Of a DNA stretch of 64,000 nucleotides, positions 26,976 through 46,318 are shown one piece after another. The DNA comes from Chitinophagaceae bacterium. Lineage in GTDB: Bacteria; Bacteroidota; Bacteroidia; Chitinophagales; Chitinophagaceae. The stretch is taken from assembly GCA_019745155.1 (NCBI GenBank), contig JAIETM010000016.1, forward strand, positions 1 to 64,000, written 5' to 3'. A model generated the notes under the pieces. The model was not told the origin of the DNA. It saw only the letters and a list, made by a program, of their open reading frames with translations, and searched no databases. A program made the position numbers and the translations under genes. The stretch's first letter is position 1; each line of letters opens with the position of its first letter.

Positions 26976-29900
26976 ATGAGAAAACTGATTTTTGGATTAT
27001 TACTTTTTTCTCCAGTTGCATTAATTGCACAAGAGAGAACCAATAAACAGGTATTGCAATCCTTATCGCAATCTTTGAATCAGCAATACAAAAACGACAG
27101 TACGGAACTATCATTACTGGTGAGGCAAAAAAAAGCCGTACAGCGTTTCAAAGTTGAAAATGGTTCCACCGCACAGTTAACAGGTATTGCACCAAATAAA
27201 CTACCTATTTATACAGTTGTCGACAATAACACAACGGCTGCTGCTACTACCAGTACACAAACATTGTGGCAAGGAGGTAGTACTGGTTTGGGCTTAACAG
27301 GCGGTATACAGGCTTTAACAGGTAAGCTGGGTATTTGGGATGGTGGTCGTGTTTTCTTTGACCATGTGGAGTTTCAAGGGAAAGGTGGTTTACAGCTGGA
27401 TAATCCTGCGGCTAATGATGATCATGCTACGCATGTGGCAGGTACGATGATTGCCAAGGGCATCAATACTGGTGCCAGAGGTATGGCATATGGCAACAGA
27501 GGATTGATAGCATATGATTTTAATAACGATGCTGCAGAGATGGCAGCGCAAGCCGGTTCGCTTTTGTTATCAAACCATTCCTATGGTACAATTGCGGGAT
27601 GGAGAGTCAACACATCAGCAAACAATCGCTGGGAATTCTGGGGTGAACCAGGCGCAACAGAGGATTATACATTTGGATTTTATGATACGAGATCCAGATT
27701 CTGGGATTCTATTACTTATGCAGCTCCATTTTATTTGCCTGTAAAATCTTCCGGAAACAATAGAAGTCAAAATGGTCCGCCAGAAGGCAGTCCTTACTGG
27801 CGTAGAAATGCTGCTGGTACTTGGGATTCTATTCCTGCAAGACCTGCAGGTATTTCCAGCAACGACAGCTATGACATCATTTCTACTTACGGCAACGCCA
27901 AAAATATTTTGACTATTGGTGCGGTTAGTTCCATTCCAAGTGGATATAGGCAAGCATCTGATGTACTCATCTCCACATTTAGTAGTTGGGGGCCAACAGA
28001 CGACGGAAGAATTAAGCCAGATTTGGTTGGAATGGGTGTGAGTCTTACCAGTCCGGTATTTGGTGGAAATATTACGAATCTGGCTGCTTATGGTATACTT
28101 AGCGGTACTTCTATGTCAACACCAAATGTAACTGGCTCATTATTGCTGCTGCAGGAATTATATCACAGACAAACAGAAGGTAATTTCATGCGTGCTGCTA
28201 CTTTGAAAGGTGTGGCGATTCATACAGCTAGTGAAGCCGGAACAACAGCCGGGCCTGATTATGTGTATGGTTGGGGTTTATTGAATGCAGAACAAGCAGC
28301 CAATGTCGTTAGAAACCATCAGAACAACCACCGAATGATTGAAGCAAACTTGCAGCAAGGGCGAGATACTTCAATTACAGTCATTGCATCAGGTAAAGGC
28401 CCCTTAGTAGTAACACTTTCATGGACTGATCCTCCAGGTGCAGTTAATTTTAATGACCGGTACAATAACAGAACTCCTAAGCTGATGAATGATCTGGATG
28501 TTCGGGTAACGAGCGGTAGTAATACTTTTATGCCTTGGATATTGGATCCCGCAAATCCAGCAGCACCTGCAACAAGAGGTGATAATATCCTAGACAATGT
28601 AGAAAAGATAGAAATTCCAAATGCTGTAGCTGGCCAATCATACACAATTCGTCTTACGCATAAAGGGGCTTTAACCAATAATGCACAAGCCTATTCCTTG
28701 ATTGTTAGCGGTATCAATGGGGTGGCATATTGTGCATCTGCACCATCTTCAAATGCAGATACTAGAATCAATAATGTGAGTTTTGGCAGCATCAACAATA
28801 CACCTAGTGCAGGTTGTACTACTTACAGCGATTTTACAAGCTTAACAGCCAGCTTAAGGCCGGGACAAACATTGCCCATTTCCATCACACCAGGAACATG
28901 CGGTGCGGATAAAGAAAAAATGATTCGCGTATTTATTGACTGGAATCTTGATGGTGACTTTGCTGATGCCAATGAAGTAGTGGCAACTAGTGCTGTTATT
29001 GCAGGTAGTACTGCGTTTACAACAAATGTTCAAGTGCCTGCATCAATTGCTTCAGGACTCAGAACAAGGATGCGTGTTATTGTTGCCGAAACCAATAATG
29101 CTTCAACTATCAATGCTTGTGGCACATATACTGGAGGAGGAGAAACACAGGACTATAGTATTCAAATCGTTGCAAATACGACAGATCTTGCATTAGAAGA
29201 TATCCAAGAGCCAATAACAAATGATTGTAGTAAAGAAGCACAGTATGTGAGTTTGCGTGCTAGAAATTTGGGAGAGACCATCGTACAGGGAACAGATATT
29301 GTTTATACTACTGAGGTGAGACAGGGTGCCAACTTAATTCAAACCCTGAGTGACACTATCAGACATTTTGTAGCGAAAGGTGATGTGATGATCTTACCCC
29401 ATAGCCAACCTTTTCTGGCAAATGCAGGTAGTTATCAATTTGTAAGTACGATAAGCATTAATGGCGATCAGAATAGTGGTAACAATACCCTTACTGTAAG
29501 TAAAACTTACAGCAACGGATTATCTGCAACTGTTAGCAACATTCAGGCTCAAGTTTGTAATAATACTTCTGTTTCTTTCAGGGCGAATATAAGTCCGGCT
29601 TCAGCCTTACTTTGGTATACACAGCAAACCGGGGGCGCACCTATTGGTGGCGGTACTGCAGCATTCGCTTCTGCAACTGTTCCTGGCAATAGAACTTTTT
29701 ATATTGGTATTAATGACTTTAAAGGGAATATTGGTATCAACAATAAAGAGCATTTTAGCTCCGGGGGTGGCTATAATCAGTTTTCGCCTGGTGTTAGAAT
29801 TCAAACTTTTACTCCAGTAGAAATAGAAAGTGCTAGGCTATATGTAGGTAATTCCGGTAAGGTTACCATTATGGTTGTTGATAGTGCTAGTATGTCAATC

Positions 29901-30743
29901 GTTTCCTCAACAAGTCTTGAGTTGAAAGCAACTTCACCATCACCATCATCAGGTGCACAGGGTAATCAACCAGAAGATATGGGTAGGGTATATCCATTGA
30001 ATCTAAGAATTCCTCAAGCTGGTAGTTATGTAATCAAAGTTGATTTCGGTCCTTCGGCAACTTTGTTTAGAAACAATGCTATTCCATTAACCCAAAATCC
30101 TTATCCTATCACTGTGCCGGGTGTAATGGCTATTACAGGGCATGAGGCTACTGTTACTACAACGCAGTTTTATTATTATTTCTATGATATGCGTATTCGC
30201 TCCCTAGATTGTGCAAGTGGTGCTGCTAGAACAGCAGTTACAGCAACAGCTCCATTGAACATCAGCATTACCCAAACTGGAAATAACCTGGCGAGTAGTA
30301 GCAATCAGGGTAGTATACAGTGGCTCTTTAATAGTAATCCTATTTCTGGGGCGAATGCACAAAACCTAAACATCGGTGCAACAGGATCAGGTATTTATAA
30401 AGTGAGACATGGTATTTTAGATTGCAGTTTCGAGTCTCCAGAATTGAATGCAACCATCACTGCGCTTACTGTGCTAAACCCAGAGAAGATTGGCTTGCAG
30501 GCTGGTCCCAACCCGGTGAATGGATTGTTGAATCTGCGCTATAGTAGTACAACATTACAGCCGCATCAGGTAGAATTATTCCACCAAGATGGAAGCCGAG
30601 TATATCAGGAACGATATCAATCACCCGGCACGAATACTGTTGTTAATCGACAATTCCGAATCGGGGCACTCGCAGCTGGTGTCTATGTGTTAAAACTAAC
30701 ATTAGGTAAAGAAGTCTATCTCACGAAAGTGATTGCACAGTAA
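26976..30743 (+). CDS. Secreted S8 (subtilisin-family) peptidase with GEVED and T9SS sorting domains
   Basis: Large secreted serine peptidase, 1255 residues. A signal peptide (MRKLIFGLLLFSPVALIAQ) is followed by the S8 catalytic domain at about 95-440. The triad is complete: Asp122 in GIWDGG, His150 in DDHATHVAGT and Ser379 in GTSMSTPNVTGS. A jelly-roll-like P-domain follows (about 450-580), then a GEVED domain around 595-730 (VFIDWNLDGDFADANEV and GGETQDYSIQI). After CARDB-like and Ig-like segments, a C-terminal type A T9SS sorting domain ends the protein (AGPNPVNGLLNLRYSS to YVLKLTLGKEVYLTKVIAQ). It would leave the cell through the type IX system; its substrate is unknown. A strong hairpin follows the stop. 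Confidence 0.92.
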   Translation: MRKLIFGLLLFSPVALIAQERTNKQVLQSLSQSLNQQYKNDSTELSLLVRQKKAVQRFKVENGSTAQLTGIAPNKLPIYTVVDNNTTAAATTSTQTLWQGGSTGLGLTGGIQALTGKLGIWDGGRVFFDHVEFQGKGGLQLDNPAANDDHATHVAGTMIAKGINTGARGMAYGNRGLIAYDFNNDAAEMAAQAGSLLLSNHSYGTIAGWRVNTSANNRWEFWGEPGATEDYTFGFYDTRSRFWDSITYAAPFYLPVKSSGNNRSQNGPPEGSPYWRRNAAGTWDSIPARPAGISSNDSYDIISTYGNAKNILTIGAVSSIPSGYRQASDVLISTFSSWGPTDDGRIKPDLVGMGVSLTSPVFGGNITNLAAYGILSGTSMSTPNVTGSLLLLQELYHRQTEGNFMRAATLKGVAIHTASEAGTTAGPDYVYGWGLLNAEQAANVVRNHQNNHRMIEANLQQGRDTSITVIASGKGPLVVTLSWTDPPGAVNFNDRYNNRTPKLMNDLDVRVTSGSNTFMPWILDPANPAAPATRGDNILDNVEKIEIPNAVAGQSYTIRLTHKGALTNNAQAYSLIVSGINGVAYCASAPSSNADTRINNVSFGSINNTPSAGCTTYSDFTSLTASLRPGQTLPISITPGTCGADKEKMIRVFIDWNLDGDFADANEVVATSAVIAGSTAFTTNVQVPASIASGLRTRMRVIVAETNNASTINACGTYTGGGETQDYSIQIVANTTDLALEDIQEPITNDCSKEAQYVSLRARNLGETIVQGTDIVYTTEVRQGANLIQTLSDTIRHFVAKGDVMILPHSQPFLANAGSYQFVSTISINGDQNSGNNTLTVSKTYSNGLSATVSNIQAQVCNNTSVSFRANISPASALLWYTQQTGGAPIGGGTAAFASATVPGNRTFYIGINDFKGNIGINNKEHFSSGGGYNQFSPGVRIQTFTPVEIESARLYVGNSGKVTIMVVDSASMSIVSSTSLELKATSPSPSSGAQGNQPEDMGRVYPLNLRIPQAGSYVIKVDFGPSATLFRNNAIPLTQNPYPITVPGVMAITGHEATVTTTQFYYYFYDMRIRSLDCASGAARTAVTATAPLNISITQTGNNLASSSNQGSIQWLFNSNPISGANAQNLNIGATGSGIYKVRHGILDCSFESPELNATITALTVLNPEKIGLQAGPNPVNGLLNLRYSSTTLQPHQVELFHQDGSRVYQERYQSPGTNTVVNRQFRIGALAAGVYVLKLTLGKEVYLTKVIAQ

Positions 30744-30780: not shown

Positions 30781-31332
30781 TTAATTCAGTTGTGGATCTA
30801 AGGGATAATGTATGAGTTGTTGATATTCTCCGCCCATTTCTTTTAATGCTTCTTTCCAGATTTGTTCAGGCTCAGCAAAGAAGACAAGCTTTTCAGAACC
30901 TGTACTGGTAATCCAACTTTTTTCTTCCAGCTCTTCGGCCAATTGGCCCTCACCCCAGCCGCTATAGCCAATATAAAAGCGAATATCCTCTTCTGCTATT
31001 AAGCCAGCGTGTATGTATTGAATAATCTGGGTAAAATCGCCACCCCAAAAAACACCGGGTACAACTTCAATTGAATCTGTAATTAAATCTGGTCTGCGAT
31101 GTAAAATGTGCACCGTATCTGTTTGTACAGGCCCGCCATAGTACACGGGAAAATCACAGCCTTCCATATCTGAAATTAAGTCACTTACTGTATCTTCTGT
31201 TTTTCTATTGATGACAAATCCGCAAGTGCCTGTTGTTTCATGATCGCAGAGTAGAACCACTGTGCGCACAAAGTTGGGGTCCTTTAAGAAAGGATCTGAA
31301 ATCAGGATTGTACCATTCTTAACTGTGTCCAT
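30781..31332 (-). CDS. YqgE/AlgH family protein (paralogue 1)
   Basis: Cytoplasmic protein of the UPF0301/YqgE/AlgH family, whose biochemical role is unsettled. Family blocks are clear: GTILISDPFLKDPNFVRTVV near the start, GTCGFVINRKT, YYGGPVQTDTVHILH, GVFWGGDF and the aromatic block RFYIGYSGWGEGQLAEELEE. I start at ATG 31332 (183 residues, the usual size); the frame stays open to 31398 but the added part is not family-like. A second member lies at 45740-46246 on the same strand. The two share architecture but differ widely in sequence, so the duplication is old. Confidence 0.88.
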   Translation of the reverse strand: MDTVKNGTILISDPFLKDPNFVRTVVLLCDHETTGTCGFVINRKTEDTVSDLISDMEGCDFPVYYGGPVQTDTVHILHRRPDLITDSIEVVPGVFWGGDFTQIIQYIHAGLIAEEDIRFYIGYSGWGEGQLAEELEEKSWITSTGSEKLVFFAEPEQIWKEALKEMGGEYQQLIHYPLDPQLN

Positions 31333-31548
31333 TGCGTGAATTAAGGTAAGGATTTTTTCTGCCCGAAAAATACAGTTTGATGCACAAGGTAATTCCATTA
31401 CAATTTCTTGTGGATAAACAAGCTATAATTTGTGGTAGAGAGTATAGTTATACGAAGCTAAAAAATTACCTTTTGAGATATTGCTATGGACCAGGCATTT
31501 CTGGAAATGCCCTTTAGCGATAGGTTGTAATGATGTTTATATCAATAA

Positions 31549-33474
31549 TTAATTATTTCGAAGTTCATCTATAAAATACATATCTATTTCGCCAACGTTT
31601 TTTGCATATATTTTTCCCCGATAGGAGCAATTATAGTCTGACTTGATGCTTTCGTAAACTGCTGACGAGATGTTCACTCTGCCGGGTTCTCCATTGCTTT
31701 CCATTCTGCTGGCAATATTCACCGTACTGCCCCAGATATCATACGCATATTTCTTTTTCCCTACCACTCCTGCAACGAGAGGGCCAACATGGATACCTAT
31801 TCTTAAATCCCAGGCAGGTAAACCGTTGGTTAGTCTTTTTTCATTATTGGTTCTAATCCAATTTTGCATTTCAAGGCTTGCTTTCACCATACTTTGGACG
31901 TGTCCTTCTCTTTCGATAGGAATTCCGCCTGCGCACATATAGGCATCTCCAATTGTCTTGATTTTCTCAAGATTGTATTTACCAATAATTTCATCAAATG
32001 CAACAAAGCATGCGTTGAGTTCTTGTACCAGCTCCTGCGGACTTAGTTTTTCCGCGTGCGCTGTAAATCCTTTAAAGTCGCTGAATAAGACGGATACTTC
32101 ATTATAATGTTTTGGCTCTGCTTCACCGGTTGTTTGTAATTCTTTGGCAACTTCAGCAGGCAGAATATTTAGTAATAATCCTTCAATCTCATCTTTTTGT
32201 TTATCCAGAAGCTTATTGATTTTTACTTTTCTGCGATAGTTCCTATATAAAATAAGCGCAATCATCAAAATCAGGAATAAACCTGACAGAAATGCATTCT
32301 TGGCAAATTTCTGACGTTTAATATTCTCCTGTTGCAGCTGATTATCTTTTGTTAAGAGATCTACTTCGCTCTGTTTCTTTTGAATTTCAAAATCAAATTG
32401 TAGGGTTCCTAATTTCTTATCAGTTTCAATGTTATATAGGGTGTCCTTTATAGCAGCATATTTATATTGGTAGGTATATGCATTTTTATAGTCGCTAATC
32501 TGATTATAGACAAATGAGAATGATTCAAACACATTTTTCAGCTCTCCTGAATATTGATGTTCGGTAGCTATTTGTTCTGCTTCTTTCAAATAAGTCAGTG
32601 CTTCTTTCCAATTTTTTTTCGAGATATTCGTTTTTGCAAGTCCCATTAAAGATTGTACAATATCAAGGCTGCCATTCAGTTTTCTAGCAATCCCTAATGC
32701 CTTTTTATGGTATAAAATAGCTAAGTCATACTTCTTTTGTCTGTCATAAACCTTGCCAAGATTATTGTAAGCATAGGGGCTATTTTCAGAATCGTTAAAT
32801 GCTTTCGCGGATTTGTTGAAATAAACTAAAGCCATCGAATCATCGTTTCTGGCATAATATATTTCTCCAAGGTTTGCAGCTGTAGTACCAAAGGATTCAG
32901 TATCATTTAACTCTGCACTAAGTGGTAATGCTTTTAAGAAGTAAACGAGTGCTTTGTCGTGTGTGGCTGGCTTTTCAAAATAAACACCGCCAATATTATT
33001 TAAGGCAGAAAGTATGCGCAGTTTATCTTTTGTTTTTTCTGCTAGTTTTAATGATTGTAGGTAATATTCCAATGCATTGGTCAAATCTTTTTGATTGAAA
33101 TAGATAGCGCCAATATTATTTAAAATATTAGCGGTACCGATTTCATCATTCATTGACTTAAAAATCTCAAGAGACTTTTTCCAGAAATCCAATGCTTCTA
33201 CATCTTTTCCCTGGTAATAATAGGCAATCCCAATATTCTTCAGCGCATAAGCTACACCTTCTTGGTAGTTTACTGATGCAGCAAGGTCTCTAGCCCTTGC
33301 TGCATACAGTATTGCTGAATCTGGTGCTTTGCTAAAGTTGCTTTTACTTATCGACAACAACTGGTTAACCCTGGCCGTGTCTTGGCTAGTAAAGTTTCTT
33401 GTAGAAACATTCTGAGAATTTGCAACTGAGCTAGCTAATACACATATATAAATTAGTTCCTTTCTAAAAATCAT
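31549..33474 (-). CDS. TPR-containing class III adenylate cyclase
   Basis: Membrane-bound nucleotide cyclase, 641 residues. A signal peptide is followed by about eight tetratricopeptide repeats (about 40-345, for example ALKNIGIAYYYQGKDVEAL), then a coiled coil. One membrane helix at about 395-415 (FLSGLFLILMIALILY) precedes a cytoplasmic class III cyclase domain at about 455-640. Metal-binding aspartates are Asp466 (FSDFKGFT) and Asp510 (KTIGDAYM). The adenine-selecting pair Lys506 and Asp579 (YAYDIWGS) matches adenylate rather than guanylate cyclases, and the transition-state block NIASRMES is intact. The sensor part would face the periplasm. The gene lies 18 bases downstream of the giant secreted protein, so the two are probably cotranscribed. 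Confidence 0.88.
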   Translation of the reverse strand: MIFRKELIYICVLASSVANSQNVSTRNFTSQDTARVNQLLSISKSNFSKAPDSAILYAARARDLAASVNYQEGVAYALKNIGIAYYYQGKDVEALDFWKKSLEIFKSMNDEIGTANILNNIGAIYFNQKDLTNALEYYLQSLKLAEKTKDKLRILSALNNIGGVYFEKPATHDKALVYFLKALPLSAELNDTESFGTTAANLGEIYYARNDDSMALVYFNKSAKAFNDSENSPYAYNNLGKVYDRQKKYDLAILYHKKALGIARKLNGSLDIVQSLMGLAKTNISKKNWKEALTYLKEAEQIATEHQYSGELKNVFESFSFVYNQISDYKNAYTYQYKYAAIKDTLYNIETDKKLGTLQFDFEIQKKQSEVDLLTKDNQLQQENIKRQKFAKNAFLSGLFLILMIALILYRNYRRKVKINKLLDKQKDEIEGLLLNILPAEVAKELQTTGEAEPKHYNEVSVLFSDFKGFTAHAEKLSPQELVQELNACFVAFDEIIGKYNLEKIKTIGDAYMCAGGIPIEREGHVQSMVKASLEMQNWIRTNNEKRLTNGLPAWDLRIGIHVGPLVAGVVGKKKYAYDIWGSTVNIASRMESNGEPGRVNISSAVYESIKSDYNCSYRGKIYAKNVGEIDMYFIDELRNN

Positions 33475-33492
33475 ATATACAATCTAGATATT

Positions 33493-36400
33493 TTATAGCT
33501 TAATAAACATAATAAGTTCTGATCCTTTCTTGCCAATTACTTTCACATAATGACTGCCTTTGTTCAGATGAGTCACATCCATTTCTATCATATGCTTCGA
33601 TAGCAAACGAGTGTTTCGCTGTGGCATTATTTTACCAGCAAGATCTATGAGCATGACTTGATTGGTTGATTCCACTTCAGTATTTGTTTCAATCACCAAT
33701 CTTCCTTTTGTTGGATTAGGATATGCTCTAGATGGTCTTGCAGATTGATTTTTATCATCTGATAAGACTTTGGCAACTGGTATTATTAAAGCGCTAGGGC
33801 TTGGTGTTGAACAAACATTGTTGTCATCTAATACATAAACTTGAGCTGTACAGCTTGCTGAGTTTCCTGCTGCATCTGTAACGGTTAAGGTAGTGGTAAC
33901 TCCATTTCTGTTAATCCAATTACTGTTAAATGCTGTAGCATTCAGCAAAGTCGCATGGTTATTATTACCAGATGCATCCGTAATGCTAGTTCCAGTAGCT
34001 TCAGCAAAAGGATAGTACAATACCAGATTGCTTATTGCGCTACCTTGTCTGTCTAAATCAATTTCTGCTGCTGACAAAGCGCGGCTATAAACTTTCACTT
34101 CATCAATTGAGCCTTGATACTGCTGACGATAGGTTAGACCATCGTCTACAGTTTCTGCACCAACATAGAATTTGCTTGCTAGTGTATTTAAAGGCCAGCC
34201 ATGAGAACTCATCGGGTTAAATGGATATGCTTGACCATTCATATACAGGACACCGGTACTACCGTTAAAGGTAACTGCAATGTGTGTCCAAGTATTCATT
34301 GGCACTACTGCTGGTGAAATATAATCTGCGTAGCTACCCCAGAAGGTTAAGCGATTGCCACTTTGTAAACCAATGGCAAAAATGTTACCATTGGCATTAC
34401 CAGGGCCAGTACCCTGAGTAATGATACCCCAATTGTCATTAAGGGCACTTGGATTGACCCAAGCTGTAAAGGTTCTTGGGCTACTGCCGATTGGGATATT
34501 GGCAATATTGTTTGATACAACCACATCTCCGGTCAGTCCGAAATTCAAGGCACTATTGGCTTTGTCAGCACAAGTAAAGGTAGACTTACTCAATGTCATA
34601 GAAGCAATACCTACATTGTCTGAACTACCATTATTGACTTGTGCTGCAGTAATAGTAGCTGTTCCTGATGCGTCTAAAGAAACCTTCAAAGGCTGGCAAA
34701 TAACTGTTGGTGAAATACTATCTCTTACAGTAATGTTTACAGCACAAGTACTCAATACGCCATTTGCATTGGTGTTAATATAAGTATTGGTGGTAGTTCC
34801 TAGTGGGAAGGCGCTGCCACTTGCGATACCTCCAGTTTGTTGCCTTACACCTCCAATGTTTGGAATTTCTAAAATATGTCTCCAACTATCCGTAACTGGC
34901 ACATCGTTCCATCTGCCATTTGAATTTGGATCGCCAATGCCTATAATGGTTGCATCTTCAAGTCCTATATAGTTATCAGGTTGTTGGCCATAAATGAAAC
35001 TCCAATTTGTATAATTTACTGGTTCGCCATTCGCCCATACAAATGTCCCTTCCGTTGCAATATCATTCAATCCGATCCAATATCCTCCTGATCCAAGTTT
35101 GGTTACTAAGAACTGGTTTTCAGTTGCTGAGCCAATCGTAACTAAATGACCACCTCTAGTTGTTGCATTGGTATTCGCAACATCAAATGAACTAGCGGTA
35201 TTAGATAAGTAGTATGCACTTCCTTTGTGTACACCTATATAGGTATAACCTGGAATGTTTGCACTCAAAATTGGACCACAAGGTGTAGTTGTTGCTAGTG
35301 GAATATTTACAACAGCAGTAGCACTATTTAAATCAGTATTAACTGAAATATTTGCTGGACAAGGTAGAACAGGATTGCATTCTACTGTTACTACTTGGGT
35401 AGCAGTAGCACTATTTCCAGATGCATCAGTTACTTGTAATGTTACTGGGTTTGCACCAATATTTGCGCTAGTGTACACTATTTGCGATGCGGTTGATGGT
35501 GTTGGTTGTATACCAAATATTTCGTAGACATAGTTACAGTTACCTGAATATCCACCACCGTATCTGATACCACCAATTTGTGGTATTTCCTCAATATTGA
35601 TATCTAATGCAAGTACTCTTGATTGGATATTGTAGTGTTGTCCTAATTGTTGAACTGAGAATGGTGATTTATTCCTTAAATAGAATCCATTGAATATACT
35701 ACCTACCGACATTGAAACAACCGAACTATTATTGATTACACTTGCTGGGATGGTTAACACTACATTTCCCGCAACGTCTAATATTTGTATATCGTTCACT
35801 AATCCACCATGAACTATGAATATTTCAGGACCAGCACCTGGTATAATTGGATTATCAAATACTACTTGGTGATTTACAGGAGTTACATCTCCACAATCTT
35901 GAAACGCTGTACCCATATCAAAATCACCTAATACTCTCAATGCGGTTGACTCGCTCATTGTAGTAGCAGATAAATCCCAGAAACGATTGGCATTACTTCC
36001 AGATACAGGGTTCGCTGTAAGTGTTGATAACACCAATGTAGACTTTATTGCATTCGCTGGAGTAATGGTTTTTTGTTGACCATTATGCGTGTAAGTTATT
36101 CCAGTGATATTTCTTCCAGCAATTGTTCCGCTATTTACCGTAGTAACTCGTTGACCGTTGTTGTTTCCACCGGGAAGTAAGAAACTATACGTTAATGGTC
36201 CTCCACTATTATCGGTACTTCCATTATTTACTTGCGCTGCAGTAACTGTAGCTGTTCCTGTTTGATCAAGTGTAACAGTAACTGGTTGTGCTATAGCGGT
36301 AGGTGCTTGGGTATCTTTTACTACTGTAATAGATACATTACATGTTCCAACTTCACCAGAAGTATAATTGGTAATATAAGTATTGGTGGTTGTTCCAACT

Positions 36401-39400
36401 GGGAATGCACTACCACTGGCAATACCTGCTGTTTGCTCTCTAACACCTGCTATGTTTGGAATTTCGAGTATATAGCTTAGAGGGTAAGTGTTGGTTAAAT
36501 CATTCCAAGGTCCACCAGGAAGATTGTTAAGATGAACTGCATCCTCATTGCCATTATTATTCGGCTCTCCTACACTCCAATTGGTATATGATACAGGTTC
36601 TCCGTTAGACCACACAAAGGTATTTCCAGTGTAAATACGATTGAGCCCAATCCATACATCTCCTGCAGGAACATTACTTGAAATAAATTGATGTTCCTGT
36701 GCCGATTGAATGGTAGCCAAATAACCTCCTTTGGCTCTCGCATCCGCTTCGGCTGCAATCCATCCAAACAAATTATTTGATTTATAATAAGCGTTGCCAT
36801 TATACAAACCTAGATAAGTAAAGCCAGGTAAGTTTTTATTTACGATCGTACCACAGTTGGTAGTAGTTGTTAAAGGGATATTCACTACTGCAGTATTCAA
36901 ACCTAGGTCGGCATTAACAGTAATATTTGTAGGACAAACATTTTGAGCCACACATGCTGATATACCAGCTATTGTTAAGTTTCCATTTACATAATTAATG
37001 GTATAGTTAGATGGTCTTGTTAAGTCAGGCACGACTTCATAATCAGAACCCAATAGTCCAATCAAGAAGTCTGGTGGTGGTGGCACTTGCAATTGCAAGT
37101 TGGCACTAACAGTATAAGTACCAGATGCAGTTATCGGTGGCGTCACAGCCGTTCCACCTGCATTTTTAATGGTATAAGTTGGAATTCCTGTTAGCACATT
37201 GCCTACACTGTCTTCATTTTTAAATCCAGTAATCGAATGGCTAAAGCTTAATGCCCCGCCCAATGTTCCCACTGTATCTTTTGTAGTAACAGTAAGTGTT
37301 GCTGGTGTAATAGTAAGAATACCAGTTTCATAAGTGATTTCAAAATTCTCTGCCATTAATGCTGGAGGTATAATGAAATGCTGACCTACTGTAGTTCCTG
37401 TAATCATTGGGATGGCTTTCAGGTCTTCTAGTGGATCTTGCCCTATACTTGAATCTCTATTAAAGTCTAGATCTGTTTGGTCTATGATTACTGCAACTTT
37501 AATATTGCTGGTATCTGATTCACCTGCTACCGTATTTGAATTTACAATCGCTCTTGAGTTTACAATGGCTCTTGAATTCACGATGGCCCTGCTATTGGCT
37601 AATGGATCACCACTATAGGTTCCGTTTACAATCGCTCTTGAGTTTACAATGGCTCTTGAATTCACGATTGCTCTTGAGTTTACAATGGCTCTTGAGTTTA
37701 CAATTGCTCTGCTACTGGTTAGGGTAGAGGTTGAAGTTTGTGTTGCAGTATCGTAATTAAAGTCTAATACAACAGAAGCAGGAACGTCTACCACTTTAGT
37801 AGGCGCTGGTAAAAGGGTAGTGTCATTTACATAAGTAGTATCATACAACTGTATGCCATTTACAATGGCTCTTGAATTTACAATGGCTCTTGAATTTACA
37901 ATAGCCCTTGAGTTTACAATGGCTCTTGAATTCACAATCGCTCGGCTACTTACCAATACACCCATGTTCACAATGGCTCTTGAATTTACAATAGCCCTTG
38001 AGTTTACAATGGCTCTAGAATTCACAATGGCCCTTGAATCTACTAATGCAATTACGCTGGTATCTAAAATAGACTCATGTGCAATTTTAAGTGAATCAGT
38101 TAATCCACTTCTAAATCCACCACTCAATGTAGCAGTAGGATCAATTACATAATTGAATTTAAAATCATTAATTCGATCTCCATATACCAAGGTTTTGTCT
38201 TGAGGCGTTACTTTGATATTTAGTTTTTTAACCGTTAATACGCCTGGAACAAATTCATAGTTGTATAACTGTAATAAGTTTTGATCTGCCAATGATAAAC
38301 TGGTAGTGTCAAAAGGAGAGACTGGTTGAATGGCATATTTACCTACATTGGTTAACTGCCAAACCGAATTATTGAATTGTAAATTATTCAGTTTTAAAGC
38401 AGCCAGTGTAAGATTGGTTGAATCTATCGGCACGCCATCAACGGTTACCTTATAAGTAAAGGCAGGGGCTGCTTCTCCGTATTTTTTCTCTTTATTGTCA
38501 ACAATAACTTTTACAATCTTTCTTGCATCATCAAATAAACGAAGAGTTTCAGAAACGCCTCCATCCAATTGACTGCTGGTAATGGCTTGAGTGGCCAACT
38601 CTACAGTTGGGTTGCCTCCATTGTACACAGGAATGATTGCTGTTGCTGTTTGTTCATCAATGATATTGGTAGTAATAGGCACTCCATTAAAACGAATTTT
38701 TGTATCTGGAGATAAATGCTCACCTGTTACTTGCAATCTTGATAATGGTACAAAATTGGAATCACCCATCGACTTTAATGCATTCAGTTTAGGCGTAGGC
38801 TTCGCAAAGGACTTCAACATAGCATCGGCCTGTAGCAATCCTGCACCAGAAAGTTCTGGACGACTGCCATTATACATAGGCGCAGCGGTACTTTGAAGGA
38901 TACTCTTAATATTTGCTGGAGTAAGTGTTTGGTTGGAGAACTTCTGTTTTGCTTCTATCAAAAGTGCAACTGCACCAGCTACGTGAGGAGCTGCTGCTGA
39001 AGTACCAAAGAAGTTCGGGAATGCATCACCGTCGATATTAACACCACCCATATTCACCGTAGTATTTACACCATTGGGTGCGGTGATATCCGGTTTATTT
39101 CTGTTGGTATTGTTTACCATAGTACCACCTCTGGAAGAGAAAGAGGCAACAGTAGGTACACCACCAAATTGAGGCGTATTAGTAAACAATACTGCACCTA
39201 CAGAGATAGCTCCAGCGGCATTAGCCTGACCAACAATTGTTCCTTTATCAGAACCATTGAGTTGTTCAATGACAGCTTCACCTCTGAAAATAATGTACTT
39301 GAACTTGGTATTAGGACCGGTTGCTTTGGTAATCAAGATATTGGTAACGGTATTCTCATTTACAGTAAAGGGCATTACTTCAATTGGATCTCCGTTGATA

Positions 39401-41568
39401 TTGTTTCTATTAAAGCCAAATAGGGTAGAGCCATCATTATTGGCTAGGTAGATATCTAGATCTGTACGTGCGCCGCTATTACCGCCAAGTGAGTAAACAT
39501 CATCTTCCCACTGCAAAACAATAGTGTAAGTGCCAGGTACCAATGTGAGTTTTTGGTAAATAGAACCGCCGAAATTATGTGCCTGACCAGTAATGCCAGC
39601 TGGGGCTGTAGTAGGGTTGAAATTGTTTTCGTAAGATTTAGTGCCATAGTTACCTGCGGCTGTTACATAAGTAACGCCTGTTGCTGCAACTTCATCAACT
39701 GCTTTCGATACAATACCATCTTTGAAGAATGGCTCTGTGATATAGGTAATATCATCAACAATTACTTTACAACCATTATTGGCCAATTCTTTTATTCCTT
39801 GTGCAAAATCACCTGGGCTAATAAATCCAGTTCTAAATGCGAGGTTGGCTTTAGGTGCAATATCATGTACAATTTGCAACATAGCTCTTCCTTCATCTGA
39901 TTTTTTACCTGGGTAATCGAGCAGTACCTGTACGGGCATATCATGCCCATTAGGATTGTTGAGGCCTGGTAAATCACCATTCACCACATCAGCGAGCGCA
40001 GGGTTATTGGGAATAGTATTATAGCTATCAGACAATACACCCACTTTTACACCAGCGCCTCCAACTTTAAATCCAGATCTTACCATAGTAGATCTAATGG
40101 CCGCATCACCTTGCGATTTAGTTAATCCTGATTTAGTTAATGGTTGATACAATGGTCTAGAGAATCTAAGTAAACTGGTTTGTTGATTTAAATTTAATAA
40201 GTTAATAATAGGGAGGCTACCTGTAATAGTTAAAGAGCCATTGCCATTGTTTACAATATTGGTTAATCCTTGGCTTTGTAAATAAGCCAATAAAGCAGCT
40301 TCTTGTCCTGCTATTGCAACTGCTTCAATTGTTACATTGGTATTGTCGATGGTGAAAATATTATTGGAAGGAATACTGGTGATTGGTCCAATATTTTGAG
40401 TTAACTGTGTTAACTCTGCACCAATTAAATCGGTTGTTTTACCTGCATCAGGAGGCGGATAGTATGGAGAAATATTGTTCGGATCGAATCTTAGTGGAGC
40501 ATAAACCAGTTCTGTGTTGTTTTCGATAATGATTTTGTTACCACACCAAAGTGCACCTACAAATCGAGTTGTTGGTCCTTTTTCAGCAGATTTTATTTTG
40601 ATTTTGCCATAAGGTACCCATACTGTACCCAGCCAGATTGTGCCTGTATTAGCTATTTCATTAGATAAGAAAAATGCATTTTCCTCATCATCCTCATCTG
40701 AGTTGGTAGTTTTATTTGAATGCACTTCCGTGAAAATTCTTTTTGCGCTACCTCCATTAATCACTGAAGCATTGATATTTCTTAATTGAATTCTTTCTGT
40801 AACAAAAATTCGAATATGGCCTGTTGGTGAATTATTGAAATTGTAGACAATATTTACTCTTCCACTTCCATTACTGATAATAGATTTAAAAACATAAGTA
40901 CCTGTACCATTCAAGGTGAGTGTTTGTCCACTATTTAATGTAACCGTACCATAATTACCCGGGCTTAAAGTGATAGAGCTGTTGAAAGAGCCTGAACCAG
41001 CTTCATATTGGTTGATAACAGGGAGGGTTGGGAAAATGGGTAAGGCCAAGTTGCTTCGGGAAATACCACCGGTAGGGGTTGGGCCACTATAAGTAGTTCC
41101 TGTTGACTGTTTAACTGAGCCATTGATGCTGCTGCCTGAACTACTTAACTTGATATTACCATTGATGAGCAAATTACCTGTAATCGATACACCTTTATCG
41201 CCCTTTAGGATATCTGATTTGTTATTTAGATAATTGTTGGCTGTTATATTACCGTTGATGGATAATTCTTTATCCAAATCAATGGAGCTTCTGCCGAATA
41301 TATTGGCCGTTATGGATGACCCTTTTTTGAGTGATATGGTTTCTTTACTGCCGATACTGCCCTTTGTTGCAGTATCAGGTTTTATACTCACCTTATCATT
41401 GAGCTTTAGTTCTTTTGCACTATAGATAACAAAGTCTTTCATCTGTAACTGTTGGTTTTGCGCATATGAAGCAGCGCCCAGCAGTGTAAATAGTATCAAT
41501 AGTGTATTAGAGAAAATTAATCTGTATTGACTAATTTTTTCGTTAAACTGCATTTGAATAAAACTCAT
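33493..41568 (-). CDS. Giant secreted protein: variant subtilase, SRAIVN hexapeptide repeats, lectin-like domains, T9SS tail
   Basis: Predicted cell-surface or secreted protein, 2691 residues. In order, approximately: signal peptide (about 17-36), a strand-rich bactofilin-like or choice-of-anchor region (45-360), and a subtilase-like domain (500-905) with Asp514, Asn640 and Ser857 (GTSAAAPHVAGA). Glutamate 559 (SDEGRAM) stands where the catalytic histidine normally sits. An IPT/TIG-like domain (917-990) and MBG-type Ig-like domains (about 1020-1170) follow. SRAIVN repeats occupy about 1177-1343, then more MBG (about 1400-1530). Two C-type lectin-like domains (about 1580-1705 and 2107-2235) carry HYR-like segments. 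A LamG domain (about 2336-2516) and a type A T9SS sorting domain (RAYPNPTKGRLVIET, from about 2610) end the protein. Probable adhesin or autoprocessed surface protein; proteolytic activity is uncertain. Confidence 0.85.
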   Translation of the reverse strand: MSFIQMQFNEKISQYRLIFSNTLLILFTLLGAASYAQNQQLQMKDFVIYSAKELKLNDKVSIKPDTATKGSIGSKETISLKKGSSITANIFGRSSIDLDKELSINGNITANNYLNNKSDILKGDKGVSITGNLLINGNIKLSSSGSSINGSVKQSTGTTYSGPTPTGGISRSNLALPIFPTLPVINQYEAGSGSFNSSITLSPGNYGTVTLNSGQTLTLNGTGTYVFKSIISNGSGRVNIVYNFNNSPTGHIRIFVTERIQLRNINASVINGGSAKRIFTEVHSNKTTNSDEDDEENAFFLSNEIANTGTIWLGTVWVPYGKIKIKSAEKGPTTRFVGALWCGNKIIIENNTELVYAPLRFDPNNISPYYPPPDAGKTTDLIGAELTQLTQNIGPITSIPSNNIFTIDNTNVTIEAVAIAGQEAALLAYLQSQGLTNIVNNGNGSLTITGSLPIINLLNLNQQTSLLRFSRPLYQPLTKSGLTKSQGDAAIRSTMVRSGFKVGGAGVKVGVLSDSYNTIPNNPALADVVNGDLPGLNNPNGHDMPVQVLLDYPGKKSDEGRAMLQIVHDIAPKANLAFRTGFISPGDFAQGIKELANNGCKVIVDDITYITEPFFKDGIVSKAVDEVAATGVTYVTAAGNYGTKSYENNFNPTTAPAGITGQAHNFGGSIYQKLTLVPGTYTIVLQWEDDVYSLGGNSGARTDLDIYLANNDGSTLFGFNRNNINGDPIEVMPFTVNENTVTNILITKATGPNTKFKYIIFRGEAVIEQLNGSDKGTIVGQANAAGAISVGAVLFTNTPQFGGVPTVASFSSRGGTMVNNTNRNKPDITAPNGVNTTVNMGGVNIDGDAFPNFFGTSAAAPHVAGAVALLIEAKQKFSNQTLTPANIKSILQSTAAPMYNGSRPELSGAGLLQADAMLKSFAKPTPKLNALKSMGDSNFVPLSRLQVTGEHLSPDTKIRFNGVPITTNIIDEQTATAIIPVYNGGNPTVELATQAITSSQLDGGVSETLRLFDDARKIVKVIVDNKEKKYGEAAPAFTYKVTVDGVPIDSTNLTLAALKLNNLQFNNSVWQLTNVGKYAIQPVSPFDTTSLSLADQNLLQLYNYEFVPGVLTVKKLNIKVTPQDKTLVYGDRINDFKFNYVIDPTATLSGGFRSGLTDSLKIAHESILDTSVIALVDSRAIVNSRAIVNSRAIVNSRAIVNMGVLVSSRAIVNSRAIVNSRAIVNSRAIVNSRAIVNGIQLYDTTYVNDTTLLPAPTKVVDVPASVVLDFNYDTATQTSTSTLTSSRAIVNSRAIVNSRAIVNSRAIVNSRAIVNGTYSGDPLANSRAIVNSRAIVNSRAIVNSNTVAGESDTSNIKVAVIIDQTDLDFNRDSSIGQDPLEDLKAIPMITGTTVGQHFIIPPALMAENFEITYETGILTITPATLTVTTKDTVGTLGGALSFSHSITGFKNEDSVGNVLTGIPTYTIKNAGGTAVTPPITASGTYTVSANLQLQVPPPPDFLIGLLGSDYEVVPDLTRPSNYTINYVNGNLTIAGISACVAQNVCPTNITVNADLGLNTAVVNIPLTTTTNCGTIVNKNLPGFTYLGLYNGNAYYKSNNLFGWIAAEADARAKGGYLATIQSAQEHQFISSNVPAGDVWIGLNRIYTGNTFVWSNGEPVSYTNWSVGEPNNNGNEDAVHLNNLPGGPWNDLTNTYPLSYILEIPNIAGVREQTAGIASGSAFPVGTTTNTYITNYTSGEVGTCNVSITVVKDTQAPTAIAQPVTVTLDQTGTATVTAAQVNNGSTDNSGGPLTYSFLLPGGNNNGQRVTTVNSGTIAGRNITGITYTHNGQQKTITPANAIKSTLVLSTLTANPVSGSNANRFWDLSATTMSESTALRVLGDFDMGTAFQDCGDVTPVNHQVVFDNPIIPGAGPEIFIVHGGLVNDIQILDVAGNVVLTIPASVINNSSVVSMSVGSIFNGFYLRNKSPFSVQQLGQHYNIQSRVLALDINIEEIPQIGGIRYGGGYSGNCNYVYEIFGIQPTPSTASQIVYTSANIGANPVTLQVTDASGNSATATQVVTVECNPVLPCPANISVNTDLNSATAVVNIPLATTTPCGPILSANIPGYTYIGVHKGSAYYLSNTASSFDVANTNATTRGGHLVTIGSATENQFLVTKLGSGGYWIGLNDIATEGTFVWANGEPVNYTNWSFIYGQQPDNYIGLEDATIIGIGDPNSNGRWNDVPVTDSWRHILEIPNIGGVRQQTGGIASGSAFPLGTTTNTYINTNANGVLSTCAVNITVRDSISPTVICQPLKVSLDASGTATITAAQVNNGSSDNVGIASMTLSKSTFTCADKANSALNFGLTGDVVVSNNIANIPIGSSPRTFTAWVNPSALNDNWGIITQGTGPGNANGNIFAIGLQSGNRLTFWGSYADYISPAVVPMNTWTHIAVTFNGSTGVLYMNGQAYPFNPMSSHGWPLNTLASKFYVGAETVDDGLTYRQQYQGSIDEVKVYSRALSAAEIDLDRQGSAISNLVLYYPFAEATGTSITDASGNNNHATLLNATAFNSNWINRNGVTTTLTVTDAAGNSASCTAQVYVLDDNNVCSTPSPSALIIPVAKVLSDDKNQSARPSRAYPNPTKGRLVIETNTEVESTNQVMLIDLAGKIMPQRNTRLLSKHMIEMDVTHLNKGSHYVKVIGKKGSELIMFIKL
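37540..38055 (-). repeat. SRAIVN hexapeptide (18-bp) repeat array inside the giant protein
   Basis: Seventeen exact SRAIVN units in four blocks, read in protein order: four (37966-38037), five (37858-37947), five (37624-37713) and three (37540-37593). The first two blocks are joined by a degenerate unit (MGVLVS) and preceded by another (VIALVD), making eleven units in register (37858-38055). Spacers of 48 and 10 residues separate the later blocks. At DNA level the 18-base units vary at synonymous sites (Ser as TCA, TCT or AGC; Arg as AGA, AGG or CGA). The array interrupts an MBG-type domain region. Confidence 0.95.
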
Positions 41569-42839: not shown

Positions 42840-45584
42840 CTAGTGACTGGTTGTTTGTTGGTATAAATACTCTGCTGTATTTTTCAATACCTCATTTTTC
42901 GATAAAGTAAAAGGCATAATAAATTCCGGGGCTAAGAAATTGTGCTTTAAATTAATGGTATACAACACACATGACTTTGTCCAACTTGTATAACGATAGT
43001 TTACATCGTAAATGATGTTTTTGGCCAAAGTGTTCTCAGAGATTGGTTTGAATTTAAAATGCTGTTCTAATTGTAAACACTTGTCTTGAATTGATGAGTT
43101 CTCAAAAACAAGCGAGAAGAGGCCAGAGAAATCCTTGTTTACTTCTAATTGTAAGAGTTCAAGCGCATTGGCGATGGATTCTTTTGTGTTCAGTTGCAGT
43201 CCTTGCTTAATCTTCAAGACTGTTTCCTTGTCGTAAATGGTATAAAACCAATACAAGCACTTTGTTCGGATACTGAGTAATTCTGATTCTAGCGCAGCAG
43301 ATAAAATAGGATTGTTATTATCTAGAAATTTGATTTGAAATAGAATTTCTACAGAAGCATTGAGCAGCTTGTTTATTTTATTTTTTATATCTGCTTCCTC
43401 CAGACTGCTTTTATTAGATATGGAGAATAAACTATGCAATACTGCATCCGTGTTCTCAGTGTGTTTGATTAAAAGCAATTCAAGTAGATCTTTTGCTTCT
43501 TGTGTATTGATTTTACCGAGTAAAAAAATCAACTTTCTTGATTTCCCTCCCTGGCTTTCTGAATCTATTAGAATTGGTTGAAAAAAAGGGATGGCTTTGT
43601 TGCCAATTTTCTCTAGCGCTTCAATTATTTCATTGTCTTGTTTTTCATGTTTGAAGTCGTCAACTAGTTTCAGTATTACCTGAGTAGTGGCTATTTGCGA
43701 AGCGGCTAATCTAGCTGCAGATTTTATCTCCTTGTGCTCATGATACATTAACTCAACAACATTGTGCTCAAATGCAGTTAAGCCAAGTTTGCCAATAATC
43801 TTTAAAGCGTTGATCTTGTGTTCATCCGGACTAAAATTTAATTGCTGGTAAAGAATTAAAGCGACCTCTTCTGGATTGGTTTTAGACAATACGGGTAAGC
43901 TTGAAAGTGTTGCCTGGTAAGCAATGTCGCTGTTGGGGTGACTGATAAACTCATCAAAATTGTATTCTTTGTCCAGCAGCGCAATGGTGTTAATGATTTC
44001 AGACTTGATATTGTCCCTGGTTTCATCAAACAGCATGGCTTTTAATTCTGGTAACAAATCCATCTCTGCATGGCTTTGTATCATCTCCAATGAGAGTAAC
44101 TGAACATGTCTGGAGAAGTGTGACAAGCCTGCAAGTAGAAATTTACTCTTGTCAATAGGCTGTCCATTAATGAGTTTTAAAATAGAGATGGCTTCCGTTT
44201 CACTTCCATGCGAAAGTTTATCCAATAAATACGCAAGCGTGTCTTTGTCGGTAATTTCTAAATCTCTAGAATGCAGGCTACGGTTCCGGATGGCTGTTTG
44301 CAAAGTCTTTAAATAATCTTTCTCAACAGACCAGGTAAAATATGCCCATAATGTAATCAGGAAAATGATGAAGTAGTATAGGTAAGCAAAGTTGAAGATG
44401 GCAGAACCTGTATATAGCCATAATGCTACACCTGCAACCAAAAAAGAGAATGGATCCATCAACCCTTTAATGATGGTATGTCCTTTGAGCCTTTGGTGAA
44501 CTGGTAGCGGTTGTAAAATGGCCAATAGCACGGGTGTTTGTATTGCAGATCTCAATACATCTGTAATCACAATCAAAACTCCAAATAGATAAAAAGTATA
44601 ACGCTGCAACTCATGCTGATTCACAAAAAATACGCCAATTACACAGATAACAAACAAGATCACCGGAGATGCCATTAAGGCATTCCTTAAGCCAATTTTA
44701 TCAACCATTTTATTGGCAAAAGCAATTTTTATGATCAGGGTAAAAAGTCTGGTAACACCAAAAAAGATGGCGAAAAAGCTAACTAAAGATTTGTCTGATT
44801 TGAATTCAGCCTTTACGTAGCCATAGAAAATAAAATTCACCACCAGATAGATAGCAAAAGAAAAGAAGGATACGATGGCAATTTTTCGTATCAGGATATT
44901 TCCGGCCAGTGCAGTTTGAATATTCTTCACACTATGTGTGGTATGCATTTTTTGCTCACTTAGTTGAATCTGCCGGATATTCGAATGTTTGAACAAGGGT
45001 TTCAGCAGAAATAGCGAAATAGAAGAGAGAATGGCTGCTACAATCAACAAGTTTTCTGTACCGATAAAAGGGATAATCAGATAAGCTGAAAAATAACCAA
45101 TCATTTTGGCGGGAATATCTCCCGCACTAATTACTCCAAAAAGTCTTTTGCTTTGTCTTACATCAAATATCTGCGCAGCAAGTCCCCAGAATTCCAAGTT
45201 GTTTAATAAATACAAGACATTGAAAACAGCTAAGAAGAGATATAAGTACCAAATCTGGTGATCAAAAAAATTGTATAAGATCCTGAACAGGAGAATGATA
45301 GAGGTATTGATAATCACTACTATATAGATAACCCTTTTCATGGAGAGGTTGATCTCCAATTTGTGGTACATAAAACCTACTAACCACAATAGAAAAGAGG
45401 TAAAGATGTAAACTTTGGGTATATGGGTTGCCTGTAAGTGAACTAAGAAAATGGAGATTGCGGCAGTAAAAAAAAGGGCAATGGCAGAGCCTTGAAAGAA
45501 TTCATACACAAACAGGCTTTTTACCAATTTACTTTCCGATTCTCGAACTAAAATGAAATTGAGTATAGATCTTCTAAGCTTCAA
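42840..45584 (-). CDS. NTT/MFS-like nucleotide transporter with C-terminal HEAT-type repeats
   Basis: Membrane protein of 914 residues. The first about 410 residues hold ten to twelve hydrophobic helices and resemble the ATP:ADP antiporter (NTT/Tlc) or MFS group (ELEFWGLAAQ-like text: LNNLEFWGLAAQIFDVRQS, and LFGVISAGDIPAKMIGYFSA). A soluble part of about 500 residues follows, made of helical pairs typical of HEAT repeats (for example HEHKEIKSAARLAASQIATT). Translation must start at TTG 45584: an in-frame stop lies seven codons upstream with no ATG between, and the next ATG is about 70 codons in. The transport substrate is unknown; a signalling role through the HEAT part and the adjacent nucleotide-binding protein is inference. 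Confidence 0.7.
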   Translation of the reverse strand: MKLRRSILNFILVRESESKLVKSLFVYEFFQGSAIALFFTAAISIFLVHLQATHIPKVYIFTSFLLWLVGFMYHKLEINLSMKRVIYIVVIINTSIILLFRILYNFFDHQIWYLYLFLAVFNVLYLLNNLEFWGLAAQIFDVRQSKRLFGVISAGDIPAKMIGYFSAYLIIPFIGTENLLIVAAILSSISLFLLKPLFKHSNIRQIQLSEQKMHTTHSVKNIQTALAGNILIRKIAIVSFFSFAIYLVVNFIFYGYVKAEFKSDKSLVSFFAIFFGVTRLFTLIIKIAFANKMVDKIGLRNALMASPVILFVICVIGVFFVNQHELQRYTFYLFGVLIVITDVLRSAIQTPVLLAILQPLPVHQRLKGHTIIKGLMDPFSFLVAGVALWLYTGSAIFNFAYLYYFIIFLITLWAYFTWSVEKDYLKTLQTAIRNRSLHSRDLEITDKDTLAYLLDKLSHGSETEAISILKLINGQPIDKSKFLLAGLSHFSRHVQLLSLEMIQSHAEMDLLPELKAMLFDETRDNIKSEIINTIALLDKEYNFDEFISHPNSDIAYQATLSSLPVLSKTNPEEVALILYQQLNFSPDEHKINALKIIGKLGLTAFEHNVVELMYHEHKEIKSAARLAASQIATTQVILKLVDDFKHEKQDNEIIEALEKIGNKAIPFFQPILIDSESQGGKSRKLIFLLGKINTQEAKDLLELLLIKHTENTDAVLHSLFSISNKSSLEEADIKNKINKLLNASVEILFQIKFLDNNNPILSAALESELLSIRTKCLYWFYTIYDKETVLKIKQGLQLNTKESIANALELLQLEVNKDFSGLFSLVFENSSIQDKCLQLEQHFKFKPISENTLAKNIIYDVNYRYTSWTKSCVLYTINLKHNFLAPEFIMPFTLSKNEVLKNTAEYLYQQTTSH

Positions 45585-45739: not shown

Positions 45740-46246
45740 CTAGGCCTGCTTATTTACTGGTTGGAAATTATCCCAATCATTCATGCTGTTACATGCAAAT
45801 ATCCAATAAGTACTGGCTTGGTGTAGTAACCAGCTTTGTTCTTCGCATTCTGCTTCTAGCTCATTGGTGTCCCATCCACAGTAGCCGACAAAAAAGCGAA
45901 TATCCTTTTCAGAGAGATTGCCATTACGTATTTCCTTCAATGCCCTAACGAAGTTTCCTCCCCAAAAAAGATTGTTGCTTATCTGTCTACCCTCAGGTAC
46001 GCTATCGGGTCTGCGATGTATGAAGTGTACTGCTGTTGGCTCCACTGGACCCCCATCAAAAACCTGAAAATGGATATTCTGTGCATCCTCAACAAGATCC
46101 TGTAGCTGAAAATTGATTGGTTTATTGATACGTAAACCAAAACTGCCATTTGCATTATGTTCGCAGATCAGTATGATGGCACTAATGAAGTTAGGGTCAG
46201 TCAATTGTGGGTGAGATGCCAGTAATGTACCAGTTAAAATATCCAT
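45740..46246 (-). CDS. YqgE/AlgH family protein (paralogue 2)
   Basis: Second UPF0301/YqgE/AlgH protein in the window, about 168 residues from ATG 46246 (the frame is open 12 codons further). Blocks align with paralogue 1: GTLLASHPQLTDPNFISAII, GSFGLRINKP, FDGGPVEPTAVHFIHRRPDS, NLFWGGNF and RFFVGYCGWDTNELEAE. Function unknown; the family is widespread and cytoplasmic. It is divergent from the histidine kinase gene and shares with it an upstream gap of fewer than 90 bases. Confidence 0.88.
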   Translation of the reverse strand: MDILTGTLLASHPQLTDPNFISAIILICEHNANGSFGLRINKPINFQLQDLVEDAQNIHFQVFDGGPVEPTAVHFIHRRPDSVPEGRQISNNLFWGGNFVRALKEIRNGNLSEKDIRFFVGYCGWDTNELEAECEEQSWLLHQASTYWIFACNSMNDWDNFQPVNKQA

Positions 46247-46318
46247 ATTGATTCTGATCAACAAGTTAAGGTCTTGTTGCAATAAAGCTAAACTGCTTCA
46301 TGGAAAACTGGTAAAATA

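Follow-up and report, generated by a model that had tools for sequence, protein, structure and literature searches.

What does a protein gain by repeating one six-residue word 17 times without a single change? The question is raised by a giant secreted protein encoded in the window, the whole stretch of 64,000 nucleotides analysed here. The array gene and its parts are as follows.

33493..41568, minus strand: array gene, a 2691-aa open reading frame for a secreted protein with an S8 peptidase domain (aa 737-896), an MBG_2 domain (aa 1020-1084), the array domain (aa 1114-1427), two C-type lectin domains, LamG, HYR and a T9SS sorting domain (models from Pfam, and TIGR04183)
37288..38229, minus strand: MBG-type domain hosting the array as an insert, aa 1114-1427 (MBG_2 E 4.3e-4, 21.3 bits, cut-off 25)
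37540..38055, minus strand: hexapeptide array, reading VIALVD, four SRAIVN, MGVLVS, five SRAIVN, spacer, five SRAIVN, spacer, three SRAIVN
37966..38037, minus strand: block 1, four SRAIVN, aa 1178-1201
37858..37947, minus strand: block 2, five SRAIVN, aa 1208-1237
37714..37857, minus strand: spacer with DTT...VVDVPASVVLDFNYD, alignable across relatives
37624..37713, minus strand: block 3, five SRAIVN, aa 1286-1315
37540..37593, minus strand: block 4, three SRAIVN, aa 1326-1343

The two C-type lectin domains and LamG lie C-terminal to the array (33493-37287, minus strand).

The preliminary description of this DNA reported 17 unchanged SRAIVN copies in blocks of 4, 5, 5 and 3, and translation of the minus strand agrees. 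The degenerate units VIALVD (aa 1172) and MGVLVS (aa 1202) stay in phase with the rest as it had claimed, giving a run of eleven units. Its codon observations also stand: serine is TCA, TCT or AGC and arginine AGA, AGG or CGA in the SRAIVN units, and AGC opens the first unit in three of the four SRAIVN blocks. The 17 units comprise 12 different 18-mers, and two SRAIVN units share codons at a rate of 0.55, compared to 0.40 expected from the gene's own codon usage. In the 3.17-Mb window genome, a degenerate SRAIVN pattern matches these 17 sites only (a reversed-pattern control gave one match per strand); the word is confined to the array gene, and the genome holds no trans partner with the same word. 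No mention of SRAIVN was found in the open-licence PMC literature. Copy number and layout in relatives, proposed as a check, proved close to constant in the nearest one (genome G244, locus L081), which has 16 SRAIVN in almost the same layout. All compared unit residues are identical between the two proteins, and the compared protein flanks are 65-70% identical.

Two conserved peptide patterns were used to scan 84,980 species genomes, and matches were confirmed by tblastn. This gave 71 related loci, each with a record title naming Bacteroidota or a group inside that phylum. The distribution of the array domain in this phylum is patchy. Within the window's family it occurs in 29 of 394 genomes searched, and the genus's two other genomes lack it. 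Ilyomonas limi (L048), Daejeonella oryzae (L041) and Ginsengibacter hankyongi (L065) are cultured bacteria among the relatives. No viral relative of the array was confirmed. The array proteins are roughly 1500-5000 aa long, and 58 of the 72 domains counted hold at least five exact copies of a word. Each protein has its own word, largely uniform within the protein and different between proteins: SRAIVN, AHAIVN, ARALVN, GRAIVN, AKVVTN, GRVVTS, PRVITN, GRILSN, GQAILR, GKAIVA, GKAIVS, GKRSVN, SKAVAN and IKSVVN are among them. In 44 proteins (leaving out the window, which has a longer layout, and L083, which has a gap), the six core unit positions were identical within a protein at a mean of 0.88, compared to 0.46 when shuffled between proteins (maximum 0.49 in 1000 shuffles), and all six were identical in 18 of the 44. 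Non-core unit positions are partly exempt, with a mean identity to the word of 0.56-0.83. Word length varies: L084, L085, L094, L199, L225 and L227 carry octapeptide words (NGRAVAIV, NGQAVTIV, NGVPVAIV and others). L104, L105 and L108 are without a clear word.

What the array means changes when the next gene, outside the array's own coordinates, is considered.

31549..33474, minus strand: sensor gene, 641 aa, 18 bp downstream of the array gene, with TPR repeats and an adenylate/guanylate cyclase domain (class III) at residues 454-636
32920..33189, minus strand: sensor residues 96-185 (TPR), where the sensor covaries with the word
33127..33129, minus strand: codon of sensor residue N116, which covaries with the last word residue
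42367..42831, minus strand: cyclic-nucleotide-binding protein (PF00027), upstream, cNMP_binding E 8.8e-18
42840-45584, minus strand: HEAT-repeat membrane protein, upstream of the array gene

By eye, the sensor has a signal-like N-terminus and a membrane segment at about residues 395-416, between the TPR and the cyclase, an arrangement that would put the TPR domain in the periplasm. PF00211 has one match each in the window genome (G000) and G244, in both cases the sensor gene. The pairing is conserved: the following gene could be read at 58 of the 71 loci (the gene or contig ends at the other 13) and in the window, and in 43 of these 59 cases it encodes a TPR sensor on the same strand. Of the 43, 33 end in a cyclase domain, six are histidine kinases and four run into a contig end; their open frames start -33 to 256 bp from the array-gene stop. 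Pfam found TPR (TPR_12) plus Guanylate_cyc or HATPase_c in 10 of 10 sensors searched. The remaining 16 next genes are not same-strand TPR sensors; among these cases, L042 has a second array gene (L066) next to it and the sensor after that, a sensor lies about 5 kb from L050, and at L069 one lies behind a short frame. At the GYALVN locus (L239), no sensor was found in the 6.8 kb read. In L040, L048, L055, L059, L064 and L065 a histidine kinase replaces the cyclase while the TPR and the array are kept. The cyclic-nucleotide-binding gene also lies beside the sister operon L081, and its product is a possible target of the cyclase product. The whole block is bracketed, on its own strand, by two AlgH-like (DUF179) paralogues (30781-31398 and 45740-46282, minus strand). 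Another S8 peptidase (26976-30743, plus strand) has GEVED and Ig_7 domains, no array, and a T9SS sorting-domain match just under the Pfam cut-off.

Word and sensor vary together, and they do so in a restricted part of the sensor. For the 28 sensors compared (18 of 46 rows had no adjacent or no complete sensor), word similarity correlated with TPR identity at rho 0.43, compared to 0.02 for the flanks of the array protein. The partial correlation of word and TPR given the flanks was 0.44 (0 of 2000 permutations). Among 21 cyclase-type pairs, the TPR gave 0.44 and the cyclase domain 0.135, or -0.07 once the TPR was held. Sliding along the sensor gave rho 0.50-0.58 for residues 96-185, compared to 0.04-0.39 elsewhere, and leaving out one row at a time kept the TPR value at 0.39-0.48. 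This stretch and N116 were both found by scanning related sequences and then tested on held-out sets. Nine held-out sensors set against the old set gave 0.468 at residues 96-185, compared to -0.02 to 0.21 elsewhere (permutation p 0.001). Taken alone, these nine gave 0.47 at residues 96-185 and 0.17-0.47 elsewhere, so among them residues 96-185 stand out only weakly from the other stretches.

A scan of 2082 column-position pairs found z above 4 in 31 of 534 pairs within residues 96-185, compared to 32 of 1548 elsewhere. The highest-ranking pairs, which involve word positions 4 and 5, each track a single clade, and we make no claim from them. N116 ranked 17th. In the scan set, Asn was present at 116 in 32 of 32 sensors paired with a word ending in Asn, and was replaced in four of the five others. 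The resulting prediction was noted before 20 further stretches were fetched, 17 of which held a sensor, and it held in 14 of 14 testable cases: N116 was kept with all eight Asn-ending words, and six sensors with other words had R (GRALVS), K (GKAIFS), R (QRAVVS) or T (three related LRGIVS). Left out of these counts are L230, L239 and L241, where no sensor was found, L248, which duplicates L065, and two octapeptide rows, both with N at 116; a predicted QRAIAS case, at a contig end, also falls outside them. Overall, N116 is kept with 40 of 40 Asn-ending words and changed with 10 of 11 others, the exception being QRVIAS (Fisher p 8.6e-10, which ignores relatedness). On a tree built without residues 96-185, each trait changes six times; well-supported branches hold three independent pairs only, which agree in most draws and are never opposed (p 0.25). 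Four more Asn-ending words (GIALVN three times and GTAFVN) have N116, as do three octapeptide rows. It is also present in five rows whose array has no clear word, so N116 is partly a default state. R153 and G113 change less regularly, in 2 and 4 of the 11 non-Asn cases, respectively. With the conserved Gly numbered 8, N116 falls at position 2 of a TPR helix A, a position that we take to face the peptide groove. After engineered TPR proteins, the nearest solved structures to the sensor are those of GPSM2 and PINS, both of which bind peptides.

From these sequence comparisons, we propose that the hexapeptide is probably a word read by the TPR sensor of the next gene, and that the large protein most likely serves as its multi-copy precursor or displayer. 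The receptor would be the periplasmic TPR domain of a membrane-bound cyclase or histidine kinase. SRAIVN itself, or a longer peptide that includes it, would sit in the TPR groove around residues 96-185, where its last Asn would be recognised with the help of N116, and its presence would alter the output of the cyclase or kinase. All copies within one protein would have to match because each must fit the same receptor, and lineages would have different words because a word and its receptor change in step. We take a signal released by proteolysis as the most likely form, since words diverge between lineages as private signals would, and unlinked array genes retain the same word.

The evidence for this last point comes from array paralogues within genomes. 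In nine genomes (G294, G295, G298, G299, G301, G304, G336, G338 and G587), an array without an adjacent sensor shares five or six of six letters with a sensor-bearing paralogue. The flanks of these pairs are 47-59% identical in six genomes, 79% in G301 and 86% in G336. Pairs in which each array has its own sensor share four (G300), three (G301) and one (G043) letters; in G043 one word is longer and the last six letters were compared. The contrast has a Mann-Whitney p of 0.014 without G043 and 0.005 with it, from few pairs and with relatedness ignored. Both situations meet in G301, where the sensor-less L144 matches L076 at 6/6 letters and L072 at only 3/6. In G296, G297 and G329, where contigs end and sensor status is not readable, 5, 6 and 1 letters are shared. 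The paralogue count excludes a third G587 array (L199, at a contig end) and G305, a near relative of G295. When sensors were not considered, a permutation of paralogue words gave p 0.0003 (ten genomes) and 0.026 (seven), again ignoring relatedness. The flank comparison excludes 24 rows, mostly Bacteroidales, octapeptide or unclear arrays. Codon sharing in six paralogue pairs was about the same at matching and non-matching positions, with the largest excess in L042-L066 (0.50 compared to 0.41). Homotypic assembly between arrays was considered as a reading of the paralogue pattern and dropped, as the sensor pattern explains it better. In P-type arrays (PRVITN and PRVVTN; L076, L144, L165 and L166), the first letter tracks paralogue type and most of the rest tracks the genome; the Q of QKGLVN (L198) tracks paralogue type in the same way.

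The pairing resembles peptide signalling of the RRNPPA type (Rap-Phr, NprR-NprX and AimR-AimP), in which short secreted peptides of about 5-7 residues act on TPR receptors and the peptide gene adjoins the receptor gene; TPR receptor and adjoining gene are both found here. RRNPPA propeptides are described in one article as holding several copies of the mature peptide, up to six (PMC9765709), and in another as holding one to four (PMC11343458). However, RRNPPA receptors are cytoplasmic proteins of Firmicutes/Bacillota and their propeptides are small, whereas the Bacteroidota sensors described here end in a cyclase or histidine kinase, with a membrane segment read by eye, and the window's array protein is a secreted, protease-like protein of 2691 aa. 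We do not file the pair as an RRNPPA member because it lacks a cytoplasmic receptor and a small propeptide. By analogy it may work like RRNPPA peptide-TPR signalling, in which case the word would bind the TPR groove and change receptor activity; the observation here that bears on this is the covariation of word and sensor. Yeast alpha-factor type precursors also carry many identical copies of a species-specific signal peptide, with processing sites between the copies and a GPCR as receptor. That system is eukaryotic, whereas the bacterial units often run head to tail with no visible processing sites.

More broadly, we consider it possible, at somewhat less than even chances, that Gram-negative Bacteroidota communicate between cells by peptides in this manner, with giant secreted proteases carrying many copies of hexa- or octapeptide words private to a species and releasing them for a transmembrane TPR cyclase or kinase to read, word and reader co-diversifying. 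A residue code belongs to that tentative reading and shares its standing as a whole: Asn-ending words would go with N116, Ser-ending words mostly with K, R, T or S, and Ala-ending words with L. No description of the array-sensor pair was found in the open-licence PMC literature, judged by titles and the starts of abstracts. We know of no identified ligand for periplasmic TPR-kinase or TPR-cyclase sensors of Bacteroidota, and none was found in the open literature, with most subscription journals outside the scope of the search. For each sensor the pairing offers one candidate ligand, and it predicts a receptor residue that would help to read the word, the last letter of which switches together with that residue. 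If true, it would be a new kind of peptide signalling in Bacteroidota, and synthetic hexapeptides make the word-receptor claim directly testable.

An alternative, which we consider unlikely yet the most serious of the competing explanations, is that the TPR sensor binds the intact array and no peptide is released, so that the sensor would monitor the folding or secretion of its own surface protease or respond to a tethered ligand. The gene pairing and the covariation fit this explanation too, and the T9SS sorting domain implies that the protein would cross the periplasm, where the TPR domain is likely to lie. However, a check on cargo offers no obvious reason why lineages should differ in their words, or why paralogues that lack a sensor and lie elsewhere in the genome should share the word.

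A second alternative is that the array is a structural repeat, either a left-handed beta-helix or other solenoid or an amyloid-like homotypic ladder, in which packing demands identical units. For the preliminary description, the results on the array are mixed. Its proposal that the array is inserted into an MBG-type domain gains support from split MBG_2 (PF18676) matches: the window protein matches the second half of the model following its array, and a relative (L013) matches the first half ahead of its array, each with a score under the cut-off. The array sits between two MBG_2-matching parts, whereas the array itself lies outside the MBG_2 family and the array-bearing domain misses the gathering score (21.3 compared to 25 bits); a whole-protein MBG_2 match of 52.6 bits comes from the preceding MBG_2 domain. 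The flanking halves of the window's MBG-type domain have AlphaFold pLDDT mostly of 80-93. The suspicion that no named repeat family covers the unit also gains support: no Pfam or NCBIfam model covers the window array above its curated cut-off. In relatives, repeat stretches of 16-19 residues pass the cut-offs for Pam3_gp18 (L010 and L019) and SOXp (L019), matches that we take as spurious.

The suggested left-handed beta-helix fared less well. The array has the six-residue period, and the phase V-N-S-R-A-I partly resembles the beta-helix hexapeptide pattern. Matches to left-handed beta-helix acetyltransferase models are sub-threshold only (NeuD E 0.0017, 18 bits compared to a cut-off of 160.8), and those to LbH_EIF2B and DCTN5 also fall below the gathering score. 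The array is not predicted to fold in this way: AlphaFold gave 10-residue mean pLDDT of 27-58 in the window array region and, in a relative whose units vary, of 26-68, with the 68 on a non-repeat stretch inside block A. Foldseek found no match to the array fold at E 0.001, and no solved structure related to the array domain was convincing (best E 0.21, HipB). The period is not fixed at six, as units in L084, L085, L094, L225 and L227 are octapeptides. If word positions 3 and 5 were both packed inside a strand, their volumes should compensate for each other, but the compensation was not significant (rho -0.16, p 0.28). AlphaFold handles amyloid-like repeats poorly, and a ladder of identical units would also explain identity at the protein level with random codons. 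Nevertheless, low array pLDDT in two proteins, the empty Foldseek search, the eight-residue units of relatives, the partial exemption of interspersed positions and the covariation with the neighbouring sensor, which packing leaves unexplained, together make a structural repeat very unlikely.

The word is kept at the level of the protein, while its codons are near random. Identical units match in codons at 0.445, compared to 0.369 expected from each gene's own codon usage (5760 codon pairs in 44 proteins), and in 18 of the 41 proteins with enough pairs the match is less than 0.05 above the protein's own expectation. Identical units share codons at 0.445 and differing units at 0.39-0.44 (42 proteins, Wilcoxon p 0.39); both comparisons exclude the window, which has a longer layout, and L081. 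In 12 orthologue pairs, array codons diverge about as much as flank codons, and in eight of the 12 the array residues are clearly more alike than the flank residues. In the window and L081 the values are 0.93 for array residues, 0.65 for flanks and 1.00 for units alone. The four pairs with little or no excess (L040-L055, L048-L051, L044-L045 and L044-L050) are those whose words are most different. The codon data and the comparison of the window with L081 support the earlier claim of selection on the peptide rather than a recent slippage array. Five of 21 arrays with Ser in the word (the window, L081, L059, L048 and L011) mix both Ser codon classes, which suggests more than one origin of the same residue. 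Clear excess codon sharing in L071, L083, L057, L046 and L044 indicates that DNA copying also occurs at times. With the same word spelled in nearly random codons, the family offers a clear natural case of protein-level concerted change.

That slippage or gene conversion alone keeps the copies alike, leaving the word without functional meaning, is the least probable of these explanations and conflicts with the codon data: the five arrays with excess sharing look recently copied and 16 of the 21 Ser-word arrays use one Ser codon class, as from one founder unit, but a single class could also arise by parallel single mutations, codons are near saturation in many arrays, identical units show no overall excess of codon sharing, array codons diverge between orthologues about like those of the flanks, five arrays mix Ser classes, and the words covary with the sensor. 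Units A6 and B5 (alignment A3) are identical in 89% of 46 proteins, including some in which sibling units differ.
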